A DNA stretch of 64,000 bases, from assembly GCF_018324385.1 (NCBI RefSeq), contig NZ_AP019536.1, forward strand, positions 2,108,001-2,172,000. Reading direction: 5' to 3'. Within the stretch, counting starts at the first letter, position 1; every line of letters starts with the position of its first letter. Source of the stretch: Ferrigenium kumadai. GTDB taxonomy: Bacteria; Pseudomonadota; Gammaproteobacteria; Burkholderiales; Gallionellaceae. The position numbers and the translations under genes were made by a program. A model generated the notes under the pieces. The model was not told the DNA's origin. It searched no databases and saw only the letters and a list, made by a program, of their open reading frames with translations. This document shows positions 8,157-17,314 of this stretch, in pieces.

Positions 8157-8603
8157 TTATTTGGCGAGTTGCGCCTTGATCAGCGCGGAAACCTTGCCCA
8201 TGTCGGCACGACCGGCCAGCTTGGGTTTAAGCACACCCATCACCTTGCCCATATCCTGCGGACCGGCAGCGCCAGTCGCGGCGACAGCCTCAACGATGGC
8301 CGCATTGATCTCGGCCTCGCCGAGCTGTTGCGGCATATAGGTTTGCAGCACGCCCATCTCGAACTTTTCGACATCCGCCAGTTCCTGGCGGCCCGCCGCC
8401 TCATACTGACTGATGGAATCGCGCCGCTGCTTCAGCATCTTTTCGATGATGGAGACCACATCAGCATCCGACAGCTCGATGCGCTCATCTACCTCGCGCT
8501 GCTTCATTGCGGCAAGCAAAAGACGGATAGCCCCGAGGCGCGCCGCATCCTTGGCGCGCATCGCGGCTTTCATATCATCGCTGATTTGCTGCTTGAGACT
8601 CAT
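8157..8603 (-). CDS. yqeY: GatB/YqeY family protein
   Basis: 148 residues beginning MSLKQQISDDMKAAMRAKD, the normal start and length for the family. An ATG seven codons upstream (8624) is also in frame, but family N-termini begin at MSLK. YqeY resembles the tRNA-binding tail domain of the amidotransferase subunit GatB, and its exact role is unsettled. The rpsU-yqeY-dnaG-rpoD order is common in proteobacteria. Confidence 0.92.
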   Translation of the reverse strand: MSLKQQISDDMKAAMRAKDAARLGAIRLLLAAMKQREVDERIELSDADVVSIIEKMLKQRRDSISQYEAAGRQELADVEKFEMGVLQTYMPQQLGEAEINAAIVEAVAATGAAGPQDMGKVMGVLKPKLAGRADMGKVSALIKAQLAK

Positions 8604-8636
8604 ATCAGAGCCAGCCACACCCATACAGGGCGCGAC

Positions 8637-8849
8637 TTAGTACAGCTTGGGAGGAAGAGTTTGGCTACGCAGACGCTTGTAGTGACGCTTCACGGCAGCA
8701 GCCAGCTTGCGCTTACGCTCGGCGGTGGGCTTTTCGTAAAATTCGCGAGCACGCAGATCGGTCAGCAGACCGGTCTTTTCCACGGAACGCTTGAAGCGGC
8801 GCATCGCTACTTCGAACGGCTCATTCTCTTTAACACGTACGGTTGTCAT
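8637..8849 (-). CDS. rpsU: 30S ribosomal protein S21
   Basis: 70 residues starting [20 protein letters not shown] and ending in the basic [12 protein letters not shown] tail, a full-length bS21. The ATG at 8849 was chosen over one seven codons upstream because S21 proteins begin there and an AGAAGGTAG ribosome-binding stretch precedes it. It is the first gene of the rpsU-dnaG-rpoD operon. Confidence 0.97.
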
Positions 8850-8885
8850 GAACAAACTACCTTCTACCAAAAAATTGAGGGCGCG

Positions 8886-8914
8886 ATTCTAGCAAAACAG
8901 TCCGCCCCCCACAA
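8886..8914 (-). promoter_or_regulatory. Sigma-70 promoter of the rpsU-yqeY-dnaG-rpoD operon
   Basis: On the minus strand TTGTGG (8914-8909) and TAGAAT (8891-8886) are separated by exactly 17 bp. The -10 box is 36 bp before the rpsU start codon. Confidence 0.65.
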
Positions 8915-8972
8915 CCACAATTTGTTTTCTACCTGAATACCCTACCCTGCCCGCCCCGGGGCGGCGCCCAAA

Positions 8973-9001
8973 TTGACTTCACCCCGGCCGGGTGCTACTT
9001 T
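8973..9001 (+). promoter_or_regulatory. Candidate promoter of the Zorya-like operon, with palindrome in the spacer
   Basis: TTGACT (8973-8978) and TACTTT (8996-9001) are 17 bp apart, 72 bp before the zorA start. The spacer holds an inverted repeat CACCC (8980-8984) / GGGTG (8990-8994), a possible operator. A separate perfect 14-bp GC palindrome lies at 8951-8964. Confidence 0.5.
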
Positions 9002-9073
9002 CGCGGCGCGACGCGGACGGTGCCCTGCATCCCTCCTACGGCTCCACTGACCATATAAACAGAAGTAAAGCCA

Positions 9074-11035
9074 ATGCCGACACTTGCCAACCTCCCCCAC
9101 CATATATATGTCTTCGCTGCGATACTCGGCGTTCTGCTCTTCGCGTTCCTGTTCTTCTTTTTCCTGCCGTCCCTGCTCCTGTCGAGACGGTTATCCGCCA
9201 CCGCCAGGAAGCTGGAGGCCCTGAAGGGAAAGCCGGGCGCCGACATGGGCCGCATCTTCGATAAAACCGGCGTTCTTGAGCATCTCTGGCAGGAATACAC
9301 GGATACCCTGCACAAGCAAACCGAGACCGATGCCCTCACAGGCCAGCCCGTCACACGCATGCGCTCGACCATGCCGGCTGGGGCGATCTTCCGTCCCGAG
9401 ATCGTCGTCGACATTCCGCTGCGCGCCGATTTCTTCAAGCACCTGCCGGGGCTGTTCACCGGCGTGGGTATCATCGGGACGTTCTATGGCCTCCTCATCG
9501 GCCTGCAGGCATTCGAGGTGTCGGAGAACGCCATCGTCGTGCGCAACAGCCTGAACAAACTGCTGCACGGCGTCTGGGAAGCATTCCTGGTGTCGGCAGC
9601 GGCCATCACGCTCGCGATGATCGTCACCTTCATCGAAAAGCTGCTCGTCGCCCGCCTGAATGCCGAGGTCGAGAAGATCGTGCAACTCCTCGATGCGCTC
9701 TTCGAAGGCGGCGCAGGCGAGGAATACCTGGCCCGGCTGGTGAAGGCATCGGAGTCGTCCTCGAACCAGACCGCCACCCTGCTCAAGGGCGAATTGAAGC
9801 AGATGCTCGCCGAACTCTCGGCACAGCAGATCGCTGCGGCCAATGCCGCCTCGTCCACTCTCGGGGACCGCATCGTCGGCAGCATCGAAGCCGGCCTGAA
9901 GGAGCCGCTCAACAAGATCGCCGAATCGTTCAAGGGGGTACGCAACGACCAGGAAGCGGCCGTCCAGTCCCTACTGACCAACGTGCTGCAAGGCTTCAGC
10001 CAGCAAATGAAGGATCTGTTCGGCAACCAGATCGCCGGCATCAACGGCCTGCAGCAGGAAACCATACAGGCGCTTCAGGCAGCGGTCGTCACCCTTGAGC
10101 AGATGGCCTCGAACGTGGAAGCCTCCGGACTGCGAAGCACCTCGTCGATGGCCGACCAGTTGGCCGAAGCGATGGCGGCGGCAGAATCGCGCCAGCGCAT
10201 CATGAACGACAAGATGACCGAGTTCATCGACCAACTGCGGCTGGTCGTGTCCAACTCGCAAGGCGAGACGCAGGCGAAACTGCAGGGCACGCTGGACGAC
10301 CTGTCGGAGCGCATGGGCCAGGTCATCGACAGCCTGAGCGCACAAGTCCGTTCCGCAACGGATGCCAGCATGAAGTACCACGATGAATTGGCCATCAAGA
10401 GCCAGAATGTCGTCGGACAGTTCGGCGGTCATGTCGAAGCGGTCGTGGATAGCGTGAATCGTGCCGCCACCGAAATGCGTGCCGCCGTCGAGGCGATGCG
10501 GCGCACAACAGGCGAAGCGCTGTCCAAGATGAATAACGGCGCAGACACCCTGTACCTTGCGGCCAAAGACTTCGCCGCAGCAGGCCAGGGCGTCACCGCC
10601 ACGCTGGACAAATCTTCGCAGGTGGCGAACCAACTCTCTCAGGCCGCCGGCTCGGTATCCGCGGCCTCCAAGGGATTGAGCGGCATGCTGGCGGACCATC
10701 AGTCGGTGCGCGATTCGATCGCCGGCATGGTAGGGTCGATGCAGGCCATCGTCGAGCAGGCGCGCCGCGAGGCCTCCATGTCGAGCGACGTGATCACGCG
10801 CATCGAAGGGGCCGCGGCAAAACTGGTGGAGGCGCAAAAAGAGGCGGACAGCTACCTGTCCAGAGTCTCCGAAGTGCTGGGCGAGGCGCACCAGTCTTTC
10901 AGCGACGGCATGACCAAGGCGGTCGGCGAGGCCAACCGCGACTTCCACCAGGCGCTGTCCGATTCCGTGAAACTGCTGCGCGAGGGTATCCAGGAACTGG
11001 AAGACACCCTCGGCACCGCAGCCGGCCACGCCTAG
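9074..11035 (+). CDS. zorA: ZorA-like MotA/TolQ/ExbB proton-channel protein with long helical tail
   Basis: 653 residues. A transmembrane helix spans about 12-36 and two more lie at about 124-147 and 167-192; the middle one, GLFTGVGIIGTFYGLLIGL, is the MotA/ExbB-type channel helix. From residue 200 on the protein is almost all predicted helix or coiled coil rich in Ala, Gln, Ser and Glu, reaching to the C-terminus. This matches ZorA of Zorya anti-phage systems, in which a pentamer with a long cytoplasmic tail forms a proton-driven motor with ZorB. The next genes (OmpA/MotB-like and EH_signature) support the call over a plain ExbB or TolQ. A promoter-like sequence is at 8973-9001. Confidence 0.82.
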   Translation: MPTLANLPHHIYVFAAILGVLLFAFLFFFFLPSLLLSRRLSATARKLEALKGKPGADMGRIFDKTGVLEHLWQEYTDTLHKQTETDALTGQPVTRMRSTMPAGAIFRPEIVVDIPLRADFFKHLPGLFTGVGIIGTFYGLLIGLQAFEVSENAIVVRNSLNKLLHGVWEAFLVSAAAITLAMIVTFIEKLLVARLNAEVEKIVQLLDALFEGGAGEEYLARLVKASESSSNQTATLLKGELKQMLAELSAQQIAAANAASSTLGDRIVGSIEAGLKEPLNKIAESFKGVRNDQEAAVQSLLTNVLQGFSQQMKDLFGNQIAGINGLQQETIQALQAAVVTLEQMASNVEASGLRSTSSMADQLAEAMAAAESRQRIMNDKMTEFIDQLRLVVSNSQGETQAKLQGTLDDLSERMGQVIDSLSAQVRSATDASMKYHDELAIKSQNVVGQFGGHVEAVVDSVNRAATEMRAAVEAMRRTTGEALSKMNNGADTLYLAAKDFAAAGQGVTATLDKSSQVANQLSQAAGSVSAASKGLSGMLADHQSVRDSIAGMVGSMQAIVEQARREASMSSDVITRIEGAAAKLVEAQKEADSYLSRVSEVLGEAHQSFSDGMTKAVGEANRDFHQALSDSVKLLREGIQELEDTLGTAAGHA

Positions 11036-11048
11036 GTAGCCGCCCATC

Positions 11049-11136
11049 ATGCTCGGCAAGCTGATCGTACTCGGCAACCGCAACAAGGAGGAAGGCGAAG
11101 CCATTCTGGATCTCGTATGCCGACCTCATGTCCCGC
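11049..11136 (+). other. zorB: Out-of-frame N-terminal segment of zorB
   Basis: ATG at 11049 opens a frame reading MLGKLIVLGNRNKEEGEA and then stops at 11139-11141. From 11098 a second frame reads KPFWISYADLMS, the expected ZorB/MotB start with the channel aspartate (GAC at 11122-11124). From 11135 a third frame continues ALMVMFLLVMSVALL into the main open frame. One extra base near 11090-11100 and one extra C in the CCC at 11132-11134 would account for both shifts. Confidence 0.7.
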
Positions 11137-11764
11137 GCTGATGGTCATGTTCCTGCTGGTCATGAGCGTGGCGCTGCTCGCGATCACCAACAACGTCTCC
11201 GAAACGGAGCGCAGGGAAGTCGAACGCACGCATGAAATCGACCAGATCCTGGCGAAGATCGAGAAGGCAACCCAACAATATCCCGGCATCTCCATCGACA
11301 AGAACCGTAGCGTGATCGATTTCGGCGACCGCGCACGCTTCGAAACCGGCAGCTCGCGACTGTCGAACGAACAGGCACAGTACCTCAGCACCTTCGTCTC
11401 GGAAGTGCTCTCTATCGCCCGCGAAGAACTGGGCAAGAAATGGGTCAAGCGCATCGTCGCAGAGGGGTTCGCCGACCAGCGCGGCGACTACCTGCTGAAC
11501 CTCAACCTGAGCCTGCAGCGCAGCCAGCGCGTGCTTTGCGTGCTGCTCGCTCCGCCGCCCACGCAGGAGCATGTGCTGAGTCCCGCCGAACTGGAGCAGG
11601 TCCGCGAGCTGTTCCTGGTCGGGGGATATTCGTTCAACTCGGCCAAGGCATCCCTGGAAGAAAGCCGCCGCATCGAACTGCGCCTGGAATTCTTCGGCCT
11701 CGATGAAGTCCGCCCGGCAAATCTCGAAATCCCGCGCGGCGATTTCGGAACCTGCCGGATATGA
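11117..11764 (+). CDS. zorB: ZorB-like OmpA/MotB-domain protein, 5' end frameshifted
   Basis: The open frame of 215 codons starts at an ATG that is out of register with the real N-terminus, so residues 1-6 are not authentic. Residues 7-23 are the rest of a transmembrane helix. The remainder is an OmpA-like peptidoglycan-binding domain: FETGSSRLS, then GFADQRGDYLLNLNLSLQR, the counterpart of the GHTDxxG...NxxLSxxR motif. ZorB is the stator that pairs with ZorA and binds the cell wall. The intact gene would run 11049-11764. As read, the channel aspartate in YADLM is lost, so the motor would be dead unless the shifts are sequencing errors. The stop codon overlaps the next start (ATGA at 11761). 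Confidence 0.75.
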   Translation: MPTSCPALMVMFLLVMSVALLAITNNVSETERREVERTHEIDQILAKIEKATQQYPGISIDKNRSVIDFGDRARFETGSSRLSNEQAQYLSTFVSEVLSIAREELGKKWVKRIVAEGFADQRGDYLLNLNLSLQRSQRVLCVLLAPPPTQEHVLSPAELEQVRELFLVGGYSFNSAKASLEESRRIELRLEFFGLDEVRPANLEIPRGDFGTCRI

Positions 11765-13344
11765 GCGCCCTCGACCAACTGCAGCGAACACTGCACAACG
11801 TCAGCCAGGTCGCGCTCGCCAGAATACGTCTCGGCGATTCGCTGCAGATCGCGCATGAACGCTCCAGACTGATAGCCTGGCTGGGCGGCACATCGGAACT
11901 GGAGGAATCGACCGGAGACCGCATCGCCGATGCACTGCGTGCTTTCGAACAGAACCGGTACGTTTCGGGATTGCGCCAGGCGCGACTGATCTGCTACGGC
12001 TGCACGCAACCGTTCGGCACGCCGCCCCAGCGCCTGATCGAGCACAGCGAACTCTTCGCCATCCTGCTGGAGTACGTCGACCAGCACCATTACCGCACCC
12101 GTGCATTCCGCAAATGCTACCGGGGCTTGTTGAACTGCTATTTCTCCTACGACCCCGCCAGCACGGACAACCTTGCCGAGGGTCGGCACAATTGGGAGAC
12201 CCTGCGGCAATTCCTGGACAAGCGCAAGGATTGCCTCGACACGCCCGGCTACAACCCAGCATGGGTCGCCGCGTTGTCCGTCCATCACAACCTGCTCGAC
12301 AAGGATCCCTGCAAGCCCTACCAACTGGCAGATCTGGAGGAAAATCTCGAGATATTCGACGACCTGCGCGAGCGCCTTGAGATCAGTGGCGACAGCTGGA
12401 TCATCCGCAAGATCGTTTTCTCCCAGATCAGGGAGGCCATTGCCCTGGATGACGCCTCGTTTGGCGCAAACATCGACAGCCTCCTGCTGTTGCTGATCGC
12501 CCATCCGCTGCATGCCGGTGCGGCGCTGACCCTGCTGCTGAACCGCCACGTGCGCAGCGAGCAGATGGAGATTGGCGCTGCGCTCCGGGATTTTTCGGTC
12601 AAGCAATGGGGCAATCCCTGGCTCGCGGCCAATGCCCACCAATGGCAATGCGACCAGGAAGCGCGAGGGATGGTCGCACATTCCCTAAGGCGGCACTTGC
12701 TCGATAGGTTCTTATCGATACTGTCGGACGACAATGCGAGAAATCCGCGCCGCCGGAATTTCTGGGAGTTGTATTGCGGGGACATGCAGGGCATGTACTT
12801 CGCGCTGGGCAGCGATGCCTTCATCCGCGGCAACCTGGAACTGCATATGTTCAGGCACCACGCTCAAAGCCTTATCGTCAGGCTGACTGAGGGCAAGAGC
12901 GACACCCATGCGCTCATCATGCAATTCGGCGAGCATCACGTCGTGGAGTTCAACAACCATCACAATCCGGCTTATTTCTACGACACCCGCCACGGCTTGC
13001 CCCCCTTCTATCTGAGCAAAGGCTGGGTGGAGGTCGGGGCACTGAGCGCGAGCAAGATGACTCAGGGCATCGGCACCGCGCCGCGTTCGAAAGCCCTCCG
13101 CCACCAGGACAGCAGCCAGCTCTTATGGGAAGGGAAATTCGCCGAGCTGATGGGCGCAACCGAAAATTCCATCAAGGCATTCTGCAGGAAATATCACTGC
13201 CAGCACGATGATCTGAGATCCCGGGGCGGGCAGGAATGGATACGCCCGACCGACCGGACGCAATGCGGAACGGAGGCATGGTCGGTGCTGCTGGGATGGG
13301 GTTTCAACCCGTCGCCGGATGAGGCGGGTTACTGCCGCGTGTAG
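11761..13344 (+). CDS. zorC: ZorC-like EH_signature-domain protein
   Basis: 527 residues, starting in a 4-base overlap with zorB. It is a soluble helical protein without signal peptide. The C-terminal half carries Glu- and His-rich motifs (MFRHHAQSLIVRL, then FGEHHVVEFNNHHNPAYFYD) like the EH_signature family that defines ZorC of type I Zorya. ZorC is reported to bind DNA and to act with the nuclease-helicase ZorD. No ZorD gene follows; the next gene is a kinase. I recognise the family from motif pattern, size (ZorC is about 550 residues) and position, not from an alignment. Confidence 0.72.
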   Translation: MSALDQLQRTLHNVSQVALARIRLGDSLQIAHERSRLIAWLGGTSELEESTGDRIADALRAFEQNRYVSGLRQARLICYGCTQPFGTPPQRLIEHSELFAILLEYVDQHHYRTRAFRKCYRGLLNCYFSYDPASTDNLAEGRHNWETLRQFLDKRKDCLDTPGYNPAWVAALSVHHNLLDKDPCKPYQLADLEENLEIFDDLRERLEISGDSWIIRKIVFSQIREAIALDDASFGANIDSLLLLLIAHPLHAGAALTLLLNRHVRSEQMEIGAALRDFSVKQWGNPWLAANAHQWQCDQEARGMVAHSLRRHLLDRFLSILSDDNARNPRRRNFWELYCGDMQGMYFALGSDAFIRGNLELHMFRHHAQSLIVRLTEGKSDTHALIMQFGEHHVVEFNNHHNPAYFYDTRHGLPPFYLSKGWVEVGALSASKMTQGIGTAPRSKALRHQDSSQLLWEGKFAELMGATENSIKAFCRKYHCQHDDLRSRGGQEWIRPTDRTQCGTEAWSVLLGWGFNPSPDEAGYCRV

Positions 13345-13389
13345 AATCCGGAACGGCGTCCACCTTCTTATGATCAACGATCAATCTCA

Positions 13390-15105
13390 ATGGCAGAATT
13401 AACCAGACTCGGCAAATACGAAATTTGGCGGGAACTCGGGCGCGGGGCGATGGGCGTCGTCTACGAAGCGTTCGATCCGCTCATCCAGCGCACCGTCGCC
13501 ATCAAGACCGTCCTGAAGTCATCGTTCGACAAGACGGAGGCGGAAGAAGCCTTCAGCAGATTCCGCCGCGAAGCGCAGGCTGCGGGGCGGCTCACACACC
13601 CGAAGATCGTCTCCGTCTATGAGTACGGAGAAGATGAAGAAATGGCGTACATCGTCATGGAGCTCATCCGCGGCAAGGAGCTGAAGGAATACTTCGACCA
13701 CGAAGAGCGCTTCGAGATCAGGAACGGCATCCGCATCGTGCTGCAGTTGCTCGATGCACTGGATTATTCGCACAGCCGCGGCGTGGTGCATCGCGACATC
13801 AAGCCGGCCAACATCCTGATCACCGAGGACGGCCAGGTAAAAGTGGCGGACTTCGGCATCGCCAAAATCGAGTCGACGCACCTGACCCAGGTCGGGATCG
13901 TGCTCGGCACCCCTTCCTACATGTCGCCCGAGCAGTTCATGGGGAAATCGGTGGATCGCCGCACCGACATCTATTCCGCCGGAGTCGTCCTTTACCAATT
14001 CCTCACGGGCACGCGCCCGTTCACCGGCAGTGTGATCACCATCATGCACAAGGCGGTGAACCAGGAAGCGGTGCCGCCCTCGCAACTCAACCCCGCCGTA
14101 TCCAAAGCCCTCGATGAGGTGGTCAGGAAAGCCATGGCCAAACGACCGGGCGAGCGTTTCCAGACGGCCGCCGAGTTCATGGAGGCGCTCAAGCTAGCGG
14201 CGAGCACCATACCTTCGGGTGTCCCGAACAAGCCCCTGATTGCCGCAGATGAGATGTTTGATGCGACGGATTCGACCATCGTGCTGCCTGGCGGCGCCGC
14301 TTTCAAGGCAACGCCGCGCCAGGGCGATATCGAATCCTGGCGGAGCATCACCGACAGCCGGAACAAGGCGGACTTCCAGCGTTACCTTGAAGAATATCCC
14401 GCCGGCCAATTTACCGAACTGGCCAGATTGCGCATCGCGGCGCTGGAGAAGGCCGACGCCCAAACGCGCGAGGAGGCTGAGCGCCGCCGGCTGGCGATCG
14501 AAGAACAGGCTCGCCGCGACAAGGAAGCCGAAGAAGCCAAGGCAAAAGCAGATGCCCAGCGCCAGAAGGAAGACGAAGAAAAAGCGCGTCTCGCCCGGAA
14601 AATAGGCGAGATCAAGAACGAGGCCGCCGAGACCAAAGCCAGGGTGGAAGCCCAACGCAAAAAGGATACCGAGGAGCAAGCCCGCCGCGCCCGGGAACTG
14701 GCTGGTGTCATGGCTGAAAAGGAAAAACGGCTGGCTGACGTGATGGCCGAACGCGAGGCCGAGCGCGAAATTCAACGCAAACTGGAAGCCGAGGCCAAAC
14801 AGAAACTGGAAGCCAGGATCAAGCGCAGGAAGGAAGCCGAAGAAGAAGAGGCGCGCCGCGAGAAAGAACTCGCCGAAGCCAAGCTGCGGGCCGATGCAGA
14901 GGCAAAACGCAAACTGGCGGAGGATGAGCGGTTACGCCGTGAGAACGAGTACGCCGAAGCCAGGGCTCGAGCCGAGGCTCGTCGCGAGGCGGAAGAGGCA
15001 GAGCAGGCGCGCCGCGCACGCGCCAGGATCAGGGCAATCGCGGTGGTTGCAGCGATTGCCGTCGCAGGGGCTGCAATCTGGTATGTCCTGCGCATGTTCT
15101 CGTAG
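13390..15105 (+). CDS. Membrane-anchored Ser/Thr protein kinase with coiled-coil stalk
   Basis: 571 residues. A complete Hanks-type kinase domain occupies about 10-270: glycine loop GRGAMGVVY (18-26), catalytic Lys39, HRDIKPAN with Asp136, DFG with Asp154 and GTPSYMSPEQ activation segment, all consistent with activity. Residues around 315-350 have a W..I..S....F..YL..YP.G.F...A motif often seen next to signalling domains. About 350-545 is a highly charged Glu/Lys/Arg/Ala coiled coil, and a single transmembrane helix (about 547-567) ends the protein, placing the kinase in the cytoplasm. It starts 45 bp after zorC on the same strand with no terminator, so it is probably in the same operon. No good ribosome-binding site is visible. 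Its function in defence is inference. Confidence 0.85.
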   Translation: MAELTRLGKYEIWRELGRGAMGVVYEAFDPLIQRTVAIKTVLKSSFDKTEAEEAFSRFRREAQAAGRLTHPKIVSVYEYGEDEEMAYIVMELIRGKELKEYFDHEERFEIRNGIRIVLQLLDALDYSHSRGVVHRDIKPANILITEDGQVKVADFGIAKIESTHLTQVGIVLGTPSYMSPEQFMGKSVDRRTDIYSAGVVLYQFLTGTRPFTGSVITIMHKAVNQEAVPPSQLNPAVSKALDEVVRKAMAKRPGERFQTAAEFMEALKLAASTIPSGVPNKPLIAADEMFDATDSTIVLPGGAAFKATPRQGDIESWRSITDSRNKADFQRYLEEYPAGQFTELARLRIAALEKADAQTREEAERRRLAIEEQARRDKEAEEAKAKADAQRQKEDEEKARLARKIGEIKNEAAETKARVEAQRKKDTEEQARRARELAGVMAEKEKRLADVMAEREAEREIQRKLEAEAKQKLEARIKRRKEAEEEEARREKELAEAKLRADAEAKRKLAEDERLRRENEYAEARARAEARREAEEAEQARRARARIRAIAVVAAIAVAGAAIWYVLRMFS

Positions 15106-15132
15106 CATGGGCTACGCCGCCAAGCCCGATCT

Positions 15133-16041
15133 TCAATAAACGCAGAAGAACTCTACGACTTCGCTGGGATCCTTGGCATAGGCATGCCCCAGACTGATGC
15201 TGCCGTTCCCGTGCAGCACAAACTCCTCACGCCGCAACTGGATCTCTTTTTCGCCGCTGATGGTGACATAGCTGCCGTTCGAGCTTTGGTCGATGAAAAC
15301 GAACTTGTCGCGCCGGCGTTCGATCTTGGCGTGAATGCGCGAAGCCCTGCGATCCTCGATCACGATGTCCGCCTGTTCGTCCCTGCCGATGACGACCGAA
15401 GGCCGTTCGGCGTTGATCAAGAATTCCCGGCCCTGGTGAACCAGGCGCACGGCAGACTCATGGATGGGCAGCCCATGGGTGCGCCCCACCATCATGGTCA
15501 TTTCCTCGCTCTCATGCCAGACGATCTCGAACACATGGATGTCCTCAGCCTTGCCTTTTACGGTCAACGCATCGAGCATGCGCGCGCTGGACTGAATGAT
15601 GGGATGAAGCGTCGAGACGGAAGAATCCGAAGTGATGATCTGGCCGCCCTTGGCGATATTCACCATGCGTGCCGCGATGTTGACGGTATCGCCGAACACA
15701 TCAGCATCCGTTTCGAGCACCGACCCGAAATGCAGGCCGATACGGACCATGATGGGAGTGTTTTCCACCGGCGGTTGCGCGGTCACCTCGGTCTGCATCT
15801 CGCAAGCTGCCTGCACCGCCGCATCCGCACTAGGCAACACCGCCATGATCTCGTCGCCTATAGTCTTCACGACATGTCCGCCATGCGCGGCCGTCACGCG
15901 CCTCAATATGTCGAGACAGCCGTTGATGGCGGCAAACGCTTTCGTATCGCCAAGAAGTTCATACAGGCGCGTGCTGCCGCTGATATCGGCGAACAGCACG
16001 GCCATTTCCCGCTCGATACTGGATGACGCTGTTTTTGTCAT
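15133..16041 (-). CDS. Class III adenylate cyclase with C-terminal FHA domain
   Basis: 302 residues. The class III cyclase domain (about 10-170) has the metal-binding Asp in LFADISGSTRL and in IGDEIMAV, the transition-state Asn/Arg in VNIAARM, and the base-specifying Lys (VVKTIGDE) and Asp (DVFGD), which predict ATP rather than GTP as substrate. The FHA domain (about 205-295) has the phosphothreonine-binding GRDE, SRIHA and NGSY motifs. It converges on the kinase gene with a 27-bp gap. Kinase plus FHA protein is a classic signalling pair, but this gene may equally belong to the tyrS side of the locus. Confidence 0.88.
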   Translation of the reverse strand: MTKTASSSIEREMAVLFADISGSTRLYELLGDTKAFAAINGCLDILRRVTAAHGGHVVKTIGDEIMAVLPSADAAVQAACEMQTEVTAQPPVENTPIMVRIGLHFGSVLETDADVFGDTVNIAARMVNIAKGGQIITSDSSVSTLHPIIQSSARMLDALTVKGKAEDIHVFEIVWHESEEMTMMVGRTHGLPIHESAVRLVHQGREFLINAERPSVVIGRDEQADIVIEDRRASRIHAKIERRRDKFVFIDQSSNGSYVTISGEKEIQLRREEFVLHGNGSISLGHAYAKDPSEVVEFFCVY

Positions 16042-16105
16042 GCCCCTAAAACCAGCCAGTTAAGTGGCTAATTGTAACGTCATTTTTGGTAGCCGCAGCC
16101 ACAAC

Positions 16106-17314
16106 TCACTGAACCGTGATTCTGGCGAATTTGCGCTTGCCGACTTGCGCCACCACGACCGCCCCCGCATTGAGCTGCAGCGCCTTATCGCTGACTTTTT
16201 CACTATCCAGCTTGACCGCGCCCTGCTGGATCATGCGCAACGCCTCCGATGTGCTGTCGACCAGCCCGGCCTGCTTGAGCAGGTTGGCGATGGCGATGCT
16301 GCCATCGACTGCGGAAACATTAACCTCCGGCATGTCATCGGGCAATACGCCCTGCCGGAAACGCGCCTCGAATTCCGCCAGCGCATCCACGGCAGCCTTG
16401 TGCGAATGGAAGCGCGCAACGATCTCCTGCGCCAGCAACACCTTGATGTCGCGGGGATTGCGCCCCTGCTTCACCTCTTCGCGCCAACCCGCGATTTCGG
16501 CCAGGCTGCGGAAAGACAGCAATTCGAGATAGCGCCACATCAATTCATCGGAAACCGACATCAGCTTGCCGAACATATCCTGCGGCGTGTCGGTGATACC
16601 GACATAGTTGCCCAGCGACTTGGACATCTTGTTCACCCCATCCAGACCTTCCAGCAATGGCATGGTGAGTATGCACTGCGCCGGCTGACCGTAGTGGCGC
16701 TGCAATTCACGCCCCATCAGCAGGTTGAATTTCTGGTCGGTGCCGCCAAGCTCGATGTCGGCCTTGAGAGCAACGGAGTCGTAGCCTTGCACCAGCGGGT
16801 AGACGAATTCGTGGATGGCAATGGGTTGGCTGCTCCTGTAGCGTTTGCCGAAATCGTCGCGCTCCAGCATCTGGGCCACGGTGTGGGTAGCCGCCAGCTT
16901 GATCAGGTCCACCGCGCTGAACTTGTCCATCCAGGCTGAGTTGAACACGATCTCGGTCTTCTCCGGATCGAGCACCTTGAACACCTGGTCGCGGTAACTC
17001 TGCGCATTGGCGAGCACTTGCTCACGCGACAACGGCGGACGGGTGGCGTTTTTGCCAGTGGGGTCGCCGATCATGCCAGTGAAATCGCCGATCAGGAACA
17101 GCGCATGATGACCCAAATCCTGTAACTGGCGCATCTTGTTGAGCAGCACCGTGTGACCGAGGTGCAAATCCGGGGCGGTGGGATCGAAACCCGCCTTGAC
17201 GCGCAACGGGCGCCCAAGCGCAAGCTTTTGTTTCAATTCGCCTTCTATCAGAATCTCATCGGCTCCGCGCTTGATCTGCGCGAGCACATCCTGTGGTGTC
17301 ATTTCAGCCATCAT
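16106..17314 (-). CDS. tyrS: Tyrosine-tRNA ligase
   Basis: 402 residues. HLGH at 51-54 is the class I HIGH motif, and KMSKS lies near residue 230 (NKMSKSLGN). The C-terminal 70 residues form an S4 RNA-binding domain. It attaches tyrosine to tRNA-Tyr. ATG codons at 17314, 17311 and 17302 are all in frame; the first is used here. It is divergent from the M23 peptidase gene. Confidence 0.97.

Follow-up and report, generated by a model that had tools for sequence, protein, structure and literature searches.

A ZorD-less, type I-derived Zorya unit with a kinase and FHA-cyclase pair in Gallionellaceae

What does a Zorya motor act through when ZorD is absent? The question is raised by a 64,000-nucleotide stretch of the Ferrigenium kumadai genome (the window in what follows; the source genome is a single contig of 2,572,603 bases), in which genes for a ZorAB-like motor and a ZorC-like protein lie beside genes for a Ser/Thr kinase and a nucleotide cyclase bearing an FHA domain. 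In the available portions of the published accounts, ZorA and ZorB form a motor driven by ions, with the ZorA tail in the cytoplasm, ZorB attaches to peptidoglycan and its aspartate is required, and ZorC and ZorD act on DNA (PMC11890865; PMC12904381); Zorya types I to III are described in the PADLOC paper (PMC8565338), and in the known types, as far as those portions go, the final event is an attack on DNA, carried out by ZorD, by ZorE or by an equivalent that has been proposed. Five genes of the window form a ZorD-less, type I-derived Zorya with a kinase/FHA-cyclase pair:

9074..11035, forward strand: zorA-like MotA/TolQ/ExbB motor subunit with a long cytoplasmic tail, 653 amino acids (PADLOC ZorA1; PDB 8qyd)
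11117..11764, forward strand: zorB-like MotB/OmpA peptidoglycan-binding stator, an open reading frame (ORF) of 215 amino acids whose N-terminal part lies out of frame at about 11050-11116 (PADLOC ZorB1)
11761..13344, forward strand: zorC-like EH_signature protein, 527 amino acids (Pfam; PADLOC ZorC1; PDB 8r68)
13390..15105, forward strand: Hanks-type Ser/Thr kinase with a charged, coiled-coil-like tail and a C-terminal membrane anchor, 571 amino acids (Pkinase)
15133..16041, reverse strand: class III nucleotide cyclase with a C-terminal FHA domain, 302 amino acids, convergent with the kinase gene (Guanylate_cyc and FHA)

The ZorABC core and the absence of ZorD

By profile and by solved structure, the first three products resemble ZorA1, ZorB1 and ZorC1 of type I Zorya, whose A-B-C order and tight spacing they share. 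The PADLOC scan of the window's proteins gave 751 bits for ZorA1, 281 for ZorB1 and 383 for ZorC1; Pfam placed ZorC in EH_Signature (165.6 bits, cut-off 27.5) and the fourth product in Pkinase (190.6 bits, cut-off 31.7), and found Guanylate_cyc (76 bits) and FHA (45.2 bits) in the fifth, the OmpA match of the window ZorB (23.5 bits) falling under its cut-off of 27.2. A PDB sequence search matched window ZorA to the ZorA of 8qyd (269 bits) and window ZorC to 8r68 (61.5 bits), and the intact ZorB of a relative (L041), taken as query, matched the ZorB of 8qyd at 171 bits. These ORFs and matches bear out the preliminary description of this DNA, made from its letters, which had named ZorA-, ZorB- and ZorC-like genes and a complete Hanks kinase and had singled out the EH_signature/ZorC match of the third protein as one point of possible refutation. 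Its statement that the kinase gene follows zorC at 45 bp, on the same strand and with no terminator, agrees with the ORF coordinates (45 bp from the zorC stop) and with a scan of the forward strand between the two genes, in which no terminator-like site was found.

The unit misses the NCBIfam equivalog cut-offs for type I (ZorA1, 355 bits against 750; ZorB1, 185 against 400; ZorC, 103 against 490) and passes the subfamily model antiphage_ZorA_3 (351 bits, cut-off 250). It differs from type I Zorya in that the canonical ZorC models (PADLOC) reach only about the first 464 residues of its ZorC, and in that a kinase and an FHA-cyclase stand in place of a full-length ZorD. With types II and III (ZorE; ZorF-ZorG) it has the ZorAB motor core in common but carries ZorC, which the available portions of PMC11890865 and PMC8565338 assign to type I only; in the window ZorABC is adjoined by yqeY and by the kinase and cyclase genes, no family search having been aimed at ZorE, ZorF or ZorG. 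Across 26 aligned rows, the tip of the ZorA tail (residues 600-650) reaches a conservation of 0.87, level with the best motor block, and the tail between them is variable; conservation this strong suggests a docking site, as if a partner were held there.

ZorD was sought with the canonical ZorD of the family (L064, G085), in which Pfam finds SNF2, helicase and Mrr nuclease domains and which scores 1478 bits against PADLOC ZorD1, by protein search in 31 genomes and by PADLOC profile in 29. Among the genomes probed, a full-length ZorD is present only in G085 and G093, both with canonical systems (1364-1479 bits by profile). Neither search gave a match in the window genome, which speaks against a ZorD hidden elsewhere in it and upholds the earlier account of a type I-like ZorABC lacking ZorD. 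Nor was a full-length ZorD found in the 27 genomes that carry this ZorC (several of them incomplete drafts), which gave at most a helicase-domain match; the best such profile match reached 370 bits (G080), and generic helicase matches to the ZorD profile occur also in 8 of 14 control genomes. Beyond the family, 22 distinct ZorC matches came from samples taken at the level of the order (399 genomes), the class (369) and the phylum (398), and ZorD comes next after ZorC in 20 of the matches (13 of 14, the other lying at a contig end, and 7 of 8 within a 1.5-kb flank); no kinase or cyclase of the unit's kind was present near the 22 matches in the flanks covered.

Association of the kinase and the cyclase with ZorC

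The survey covered 158 genomes, many of them drafts, from the family to which the window belongs (Gallionellaceae); the bacteria that carry the unit are iron oxidisers. ZorC was matched in 30 genomes, and in 27 of these at 233 bits or more (21 in genus g1 and 6 in genus g14); G085 and G093, with a distant canonical ZorC, and G114, with a 60.7-bit ZorC fragment, were kept out of the 27. The nearest named loci that bear this ZorC belong to metagenome-assembled genomes (MAGs) of Candidatus Ferrigenium bremense, Gallionella and Sideroxydans. Kinase, cyclase and ZorABC are fully linked in 17 of the 27 genomes (two over a contig break) and in an additional MAG (L068), so that the linkage of kinase and ZorABC in other genomes, on which the preliminary description had made its proposal depend, is indeed found. 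Its gene order ZorA-B-C-kinase recurs as a minority arrangement: ZorABC-kinase-cyclase(reverse) occurs in three genomes (G000, G016, G079), against 14 with the commonest order, kinase-cyclase(reverse)-ZorABC (two across a contig break, G073 and G147), and L068 presents a third linked order, kinase(reverse)-ZorABC-cyclase. In five genomes (G043, G045, G046, G048, G080) the cyclase adjoins ZorABC and the kinase either lies at another place or was not found, and neither gene adjoins it in the other five (G044, G074-G077). In two sub-lineages the partners thus lie away from ZorABC and are mostly still present: G075, G076 and G077 have both kinase and cyclase, at two other places on different contigs, and in G074, whose ZorC contig is only 6.2 kb, the cyclase was not found. 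Contig ends interrupt the linkage in G043, G048, G073, G074, G080 and G147. The recurrence in unrelated lineages that had been envisaged did not materialize, as the order, class and phylum samples and a plasmid collection (three records matched, at 26-36% identity) did not contain the unit; in the searches made it is confined to one family, L068 not being placed taxonomically.

Across the survey, an ortholog of the cyclase is present in 25 of the 27 ZorC genomes (the exceptions being G074 and G044, the latter matching only in part, at 210 bits) versus 2 of the 131 others (G157, G068), and an ortholog of the kinase in 24 of the 27 (not above the cut in G043, G048 and G080) versus 1 of 131 (G157). 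The cuts, 300 bits for the cyclase and 447 bits for the kinase, were chosen after the score lists had been inspected: 27 genomes have a cyclase score of at least 306 bits and all others lie below 240, and the kinase list, for which only eight first-look candidates per genome were scored, has a gap between 447 and 427 bits. The FHA-cyclase is therefore a tighter partner of ZorC than the kinase is; the earlier proposal of the kinase as a replacement stands as to its specific association with ZorABC, but it had named only half of the addition and missed the cyclase.

This co-occurrence was set against a host tree of DnaG and RpoD, built by a quick method from 96 of the 158 genomes, which we picked ourselves (RpoD is largely missing from 13 to 14 of them; G059, with no DnaG match, stands outside it, and G044 was scored there as cyclase-positive despite its partial match). 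On this tree ZorC is gained or lost 13 times, and supported branches force at least 8 of these changes. When 8 independent pairs were drawn at random 200 times, the cyclase followed ZorC on average in 7.9 of them (median p 0.008) and the kinase in 7.4 (p 0.016), and the opposite direction was never seen for either. Pairwise distances among ZorC, kinase and cyclase are also correlated beyond host distance (partial r 0.59, 0.84 and 0.62; computed for those 20 of the 27 genomes whose data are complete). Taken with the gene trees, the co-occurrence indicates that the kinase is not a chance neighbour.

In the cyclase tree, 28 rows, 26 of them from ZorC genomes (25 surveyed genomes and L068), are split with 100/100 support from 24 paralogous FHA-cyclases that we selected from the score list. 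The metal, substrate and transition-state residues are conserved: D19, K59, D63, N121 and R125 are present in all 28 rows, as are G219, R220, S234, R235, H237 and N255 of the FHA domain, and D118 is kept in 25, with two rows having glutamate and one, from G068, a genome without ZorC, having alanine. We take the roles of these residues to be those of two metal aspartates, a Lys/Asp pair for the base, an asparagine and an arginine in the cyclase, and of phospho-binding in the FHA domain; the K59/D63 Lys/Asp pair is presumably of the type usual for adenylate cyclases, and the predicted product is most likely cyclic AMP (cAMP). The two cyclase loci without ZorC are L116 (G068), in which the substrate aspartate D118 is the one replaced by alanine, and L117 (G157).

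All 26 kinase rows keep K39, E61, HRD, DFG and the PE of an APE-type motif. The window kinase falls in a 19-row clade (100/99) drawn entirely from ZorC genomes of genus g1; adding L068 lowers the support of the resulting 20-row group to 65/69, and the six kinases of genus g14 form a group of their own (100/100).

The site of the unit in the window, a yqeY-tyrS junction beside dnaG (8157-17314), is reused among relatives: it is empty in L138, L141, L142 and L143, holds a different kinase of about 600 amino acids on the dnaG strand in L106-L111, and holds the Zorya unit in the window, L037 and L038. The junction kinase, of the same superfamily, occupies this place in six genomes that lack this ZorC, and on two more contigs it lies next to tyrS; its eight rows group separately (96/87). 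As a source of the window kinase, with which it has 68-74% of the kinase domain in common, it was rejected because it belongs to its own clade and is encoded on the other strand.

Signalling output and competing explanations

No ZorD, together with a kinase and a cyclase that travel along with ZorABC, suggests that the motor may send a chemical signal rather than call a nuclease. We regard it as an evenly balanced proposition that the five-gene unit is a ZorAB motor with ZorC from which ZorD has gone and which has taken on the kinase and FHA-cyclase as its signalling output. More tentatively, and at somewhat less than an even chance, we hypothesize a further, nuclease-free type of Zorya, in which an ion-driven rotary sensor of MotAB type would report an attack on the envelope by way of the Ser/Thr kinase to an FHA-gated cyclase, so that a mechanical event at the cell wall would become a second-messenger signal. 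A Ser/Thr kinase with an FHA domain next to it makes a standard phospho-relay, and the simplest relay that the sequences suggest would begin with ZorAB responding to a disturbance of the envelope or peptidoglycan, as in known Zorya. Motion of the ZorA tail, possibly by way of ZorC, would activate the kinase (membrane-anchored in most of the genus), which would phosphorylate threonines on itself or on ZorA or ZorC; the FHA domain of the cyclase would bind the phosphothreonine, and the cyclase would then make a cyclic nucleotide, most likely cAMP. We infer every step of this relay, in which the signal would run from the motor through the kinase, the phosphothreonine and the FHA-cyclase to a cyclic nucleotide, from gene content and conserved residues. 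The downstream response, whether a halt or altered gene expression, is somewhat likelier to be anti-phage than otherwise. If true, a natural version in which the motor and ZorC are kept repeatedly, with kinase and cyclase in the place of the nuclease, would uncouple sensing from killing, make what the rotating ZorA tail and ZorC transmit a testable matter, and link MotAB-like motors to phosphorylation and second messengers.

Parts of the unit have known counterparts. Bacterial FHA-domain adenylate cyclases and kinase-FHA relays resemble it in domain make-up and in the adjoining kinase; here the pair travels with a Zorya motor, and paralogous FHA-cyclases of the same bacteria group apart. The PADLOC kinase models for the single-gene kinase defence PD-T4-6 score 348 bits on the window kinase, resting mainly on the kinase domain, but PD-T4-6 is a stand-alone kinase and the kinase here is one part of a five-gene unit. 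Pycsar PycC has the class III cyclase fold in common with the cyclase and a weak profile match to it (PADLOC, 38.9 bits), and differs from it in that the unit's cyclase bears an FHA domain and a Lys/Asp pair and has tyrS as its other neighbour in the window. In the available portion of PMC12904381, a kinase is linked with Zorya and ZorC as a phage countermeasure, and the word kinase is absent from the Zorya paper PMC11890865. Literature searches whose scope left out preprints and most subscription papers found nothing on Zorya with an FHA domain, kinase and cyclase, on Zorya in Gallionella, or on an FHA domain with adenylate cyclase and protein kinase in a phage defence system, and nothing relevant on a type IV Zorya.

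Several observations weigh against a signalling Zorya. By three-frame reading, the window zorB ORF from the ATG at 11117 retains the OmpA part and lacks the N-terminal stretch bearing the motor aspartate, pieces of which are present in other frames just upstream; the gene named in the preliminary description thus stands as a ZorB1 match with a broken frame, the same stretch being in frame in all 26 relatives (25 loci of surveyed genomes and L068). The break could be either real or an assembly error, and if it is real the five-gene unit of the window is probably inactive. The C-terminal anchor reported for the kinase is there in the window (hydrophobic stretch 549-567) and in 18 of 26 rows, and is missing from the remaining eight (genus g14, L068 and G016). 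A single clade for the kinases of the g1 and g14 ZorC genomes is neither shown nor rejected (approximately unbiased test, p 0.40), so that two separate recruitments of a kinase are possible. ZorC, kinase and cyclase distances also track those of the host strongly (r 0.76-0.91; ZorC 0.875, kinase 0.912), and the history is therefore likely one of mainly vertical inheritance, with many losses and some relocation. Since linked genes come and go as a block, much of the co-occurrence needs no functional tie, and the unlinked cases amount to few events (about two). No defence island was seen around the unit, and G157 and G068 lack ZorC yet carry the cyclase ortholog, G157 with a kinase above the cut as well.

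The tracking of host distances also bears on a reading outside defence, in which ZorABC senses the envelope or mechanical state for ordinary physiology and the kinase and FHA-cyclase relay this, for example to cAMP-dependent gene control. It would fit the loss of ZorD, the sites, which are stable within sub-lineages and have housekeeping neighbours (the dnaG/yqeY-tyrS junction in the window; elsewhere enolase, CTP synthase or threonyl-tRNA synthetase), and the GGDEF protein and LuxR-type response regulator that flank the kinase at one locus; only 27 of the 158 genomes contain the unit, however, and the host tree requires at least eight changes, as expected for an accessory trait such as defence, and ZorC, a dedicated Zorya part, is kept over its whole length. 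We consider this explanation possible but rather unlikely. A system that still attacks DNA, with an unlinked nuclease or helicase such as an SNF2 protein of about 1100 amino acids doing the work of ZorD and the kinase and cyclase merely regulating it, draws on the many genomes among the 27 that have an SNF2 protein matching the helicase part of ZorD at about 36-39%. This protein matches only about positions 590-1075 of ZorD, occurs also in a genome with a full ZorD of its own (G085) and in one without ZorC (G068), and has no match in the window genome or in several others of the 27 (G078, G076, G062, G059, G131, G144 and G147), all of which makes such a division of labour improbable. That the window instead holds a type I remnant without ZorD, lying by chance beside an unrelated kinase and cyclase of a signalling-rich genome, was the alternative already raised in the preliminary description, and the broken zorB, the richness of these genomes in kinases and the different kinase of the same superfamily at the same junction in six genomes would suit it. 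Yet the junction kinase forms its own clade on the other strand and the window kinase groups with 18 others from ZorC genomes, the association recurs at other sites, in other orders and in a second genus, and all 26 relatives examined have an in-frame zorB; co-occurrence, the host tree and the cyclase and kinase trees largely refute chance neighbourhood, which we now hold to be very improbable.

Flanking genes and observations at related loci

The window unit is flanked by yqeY, dnaG and rpoD on one side and by tyrS, on the minus strand, on the other. In genus g14 a gene of about 536 amino acids lies some 30-80 bp after ZorC (L052:11480-13090; also L054, L057 and L062); it had no match in the Pfam or PADLOC scans, and its C-terminal part, judged by eye, may resemble PilZ domains. 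At L065 (G114), a 193-amino-acid ORF (9704-10285) has a match to residues 418-526 of this ZorC, in the C-terminal part alone, and is perhaps a remnant. At L050 (1251-3789), the GGDEF protein and the LuxR-type response regulator are divergent from the kinase, and genes of a size like this pair flank the kinase also where it lies away from ZorABC.

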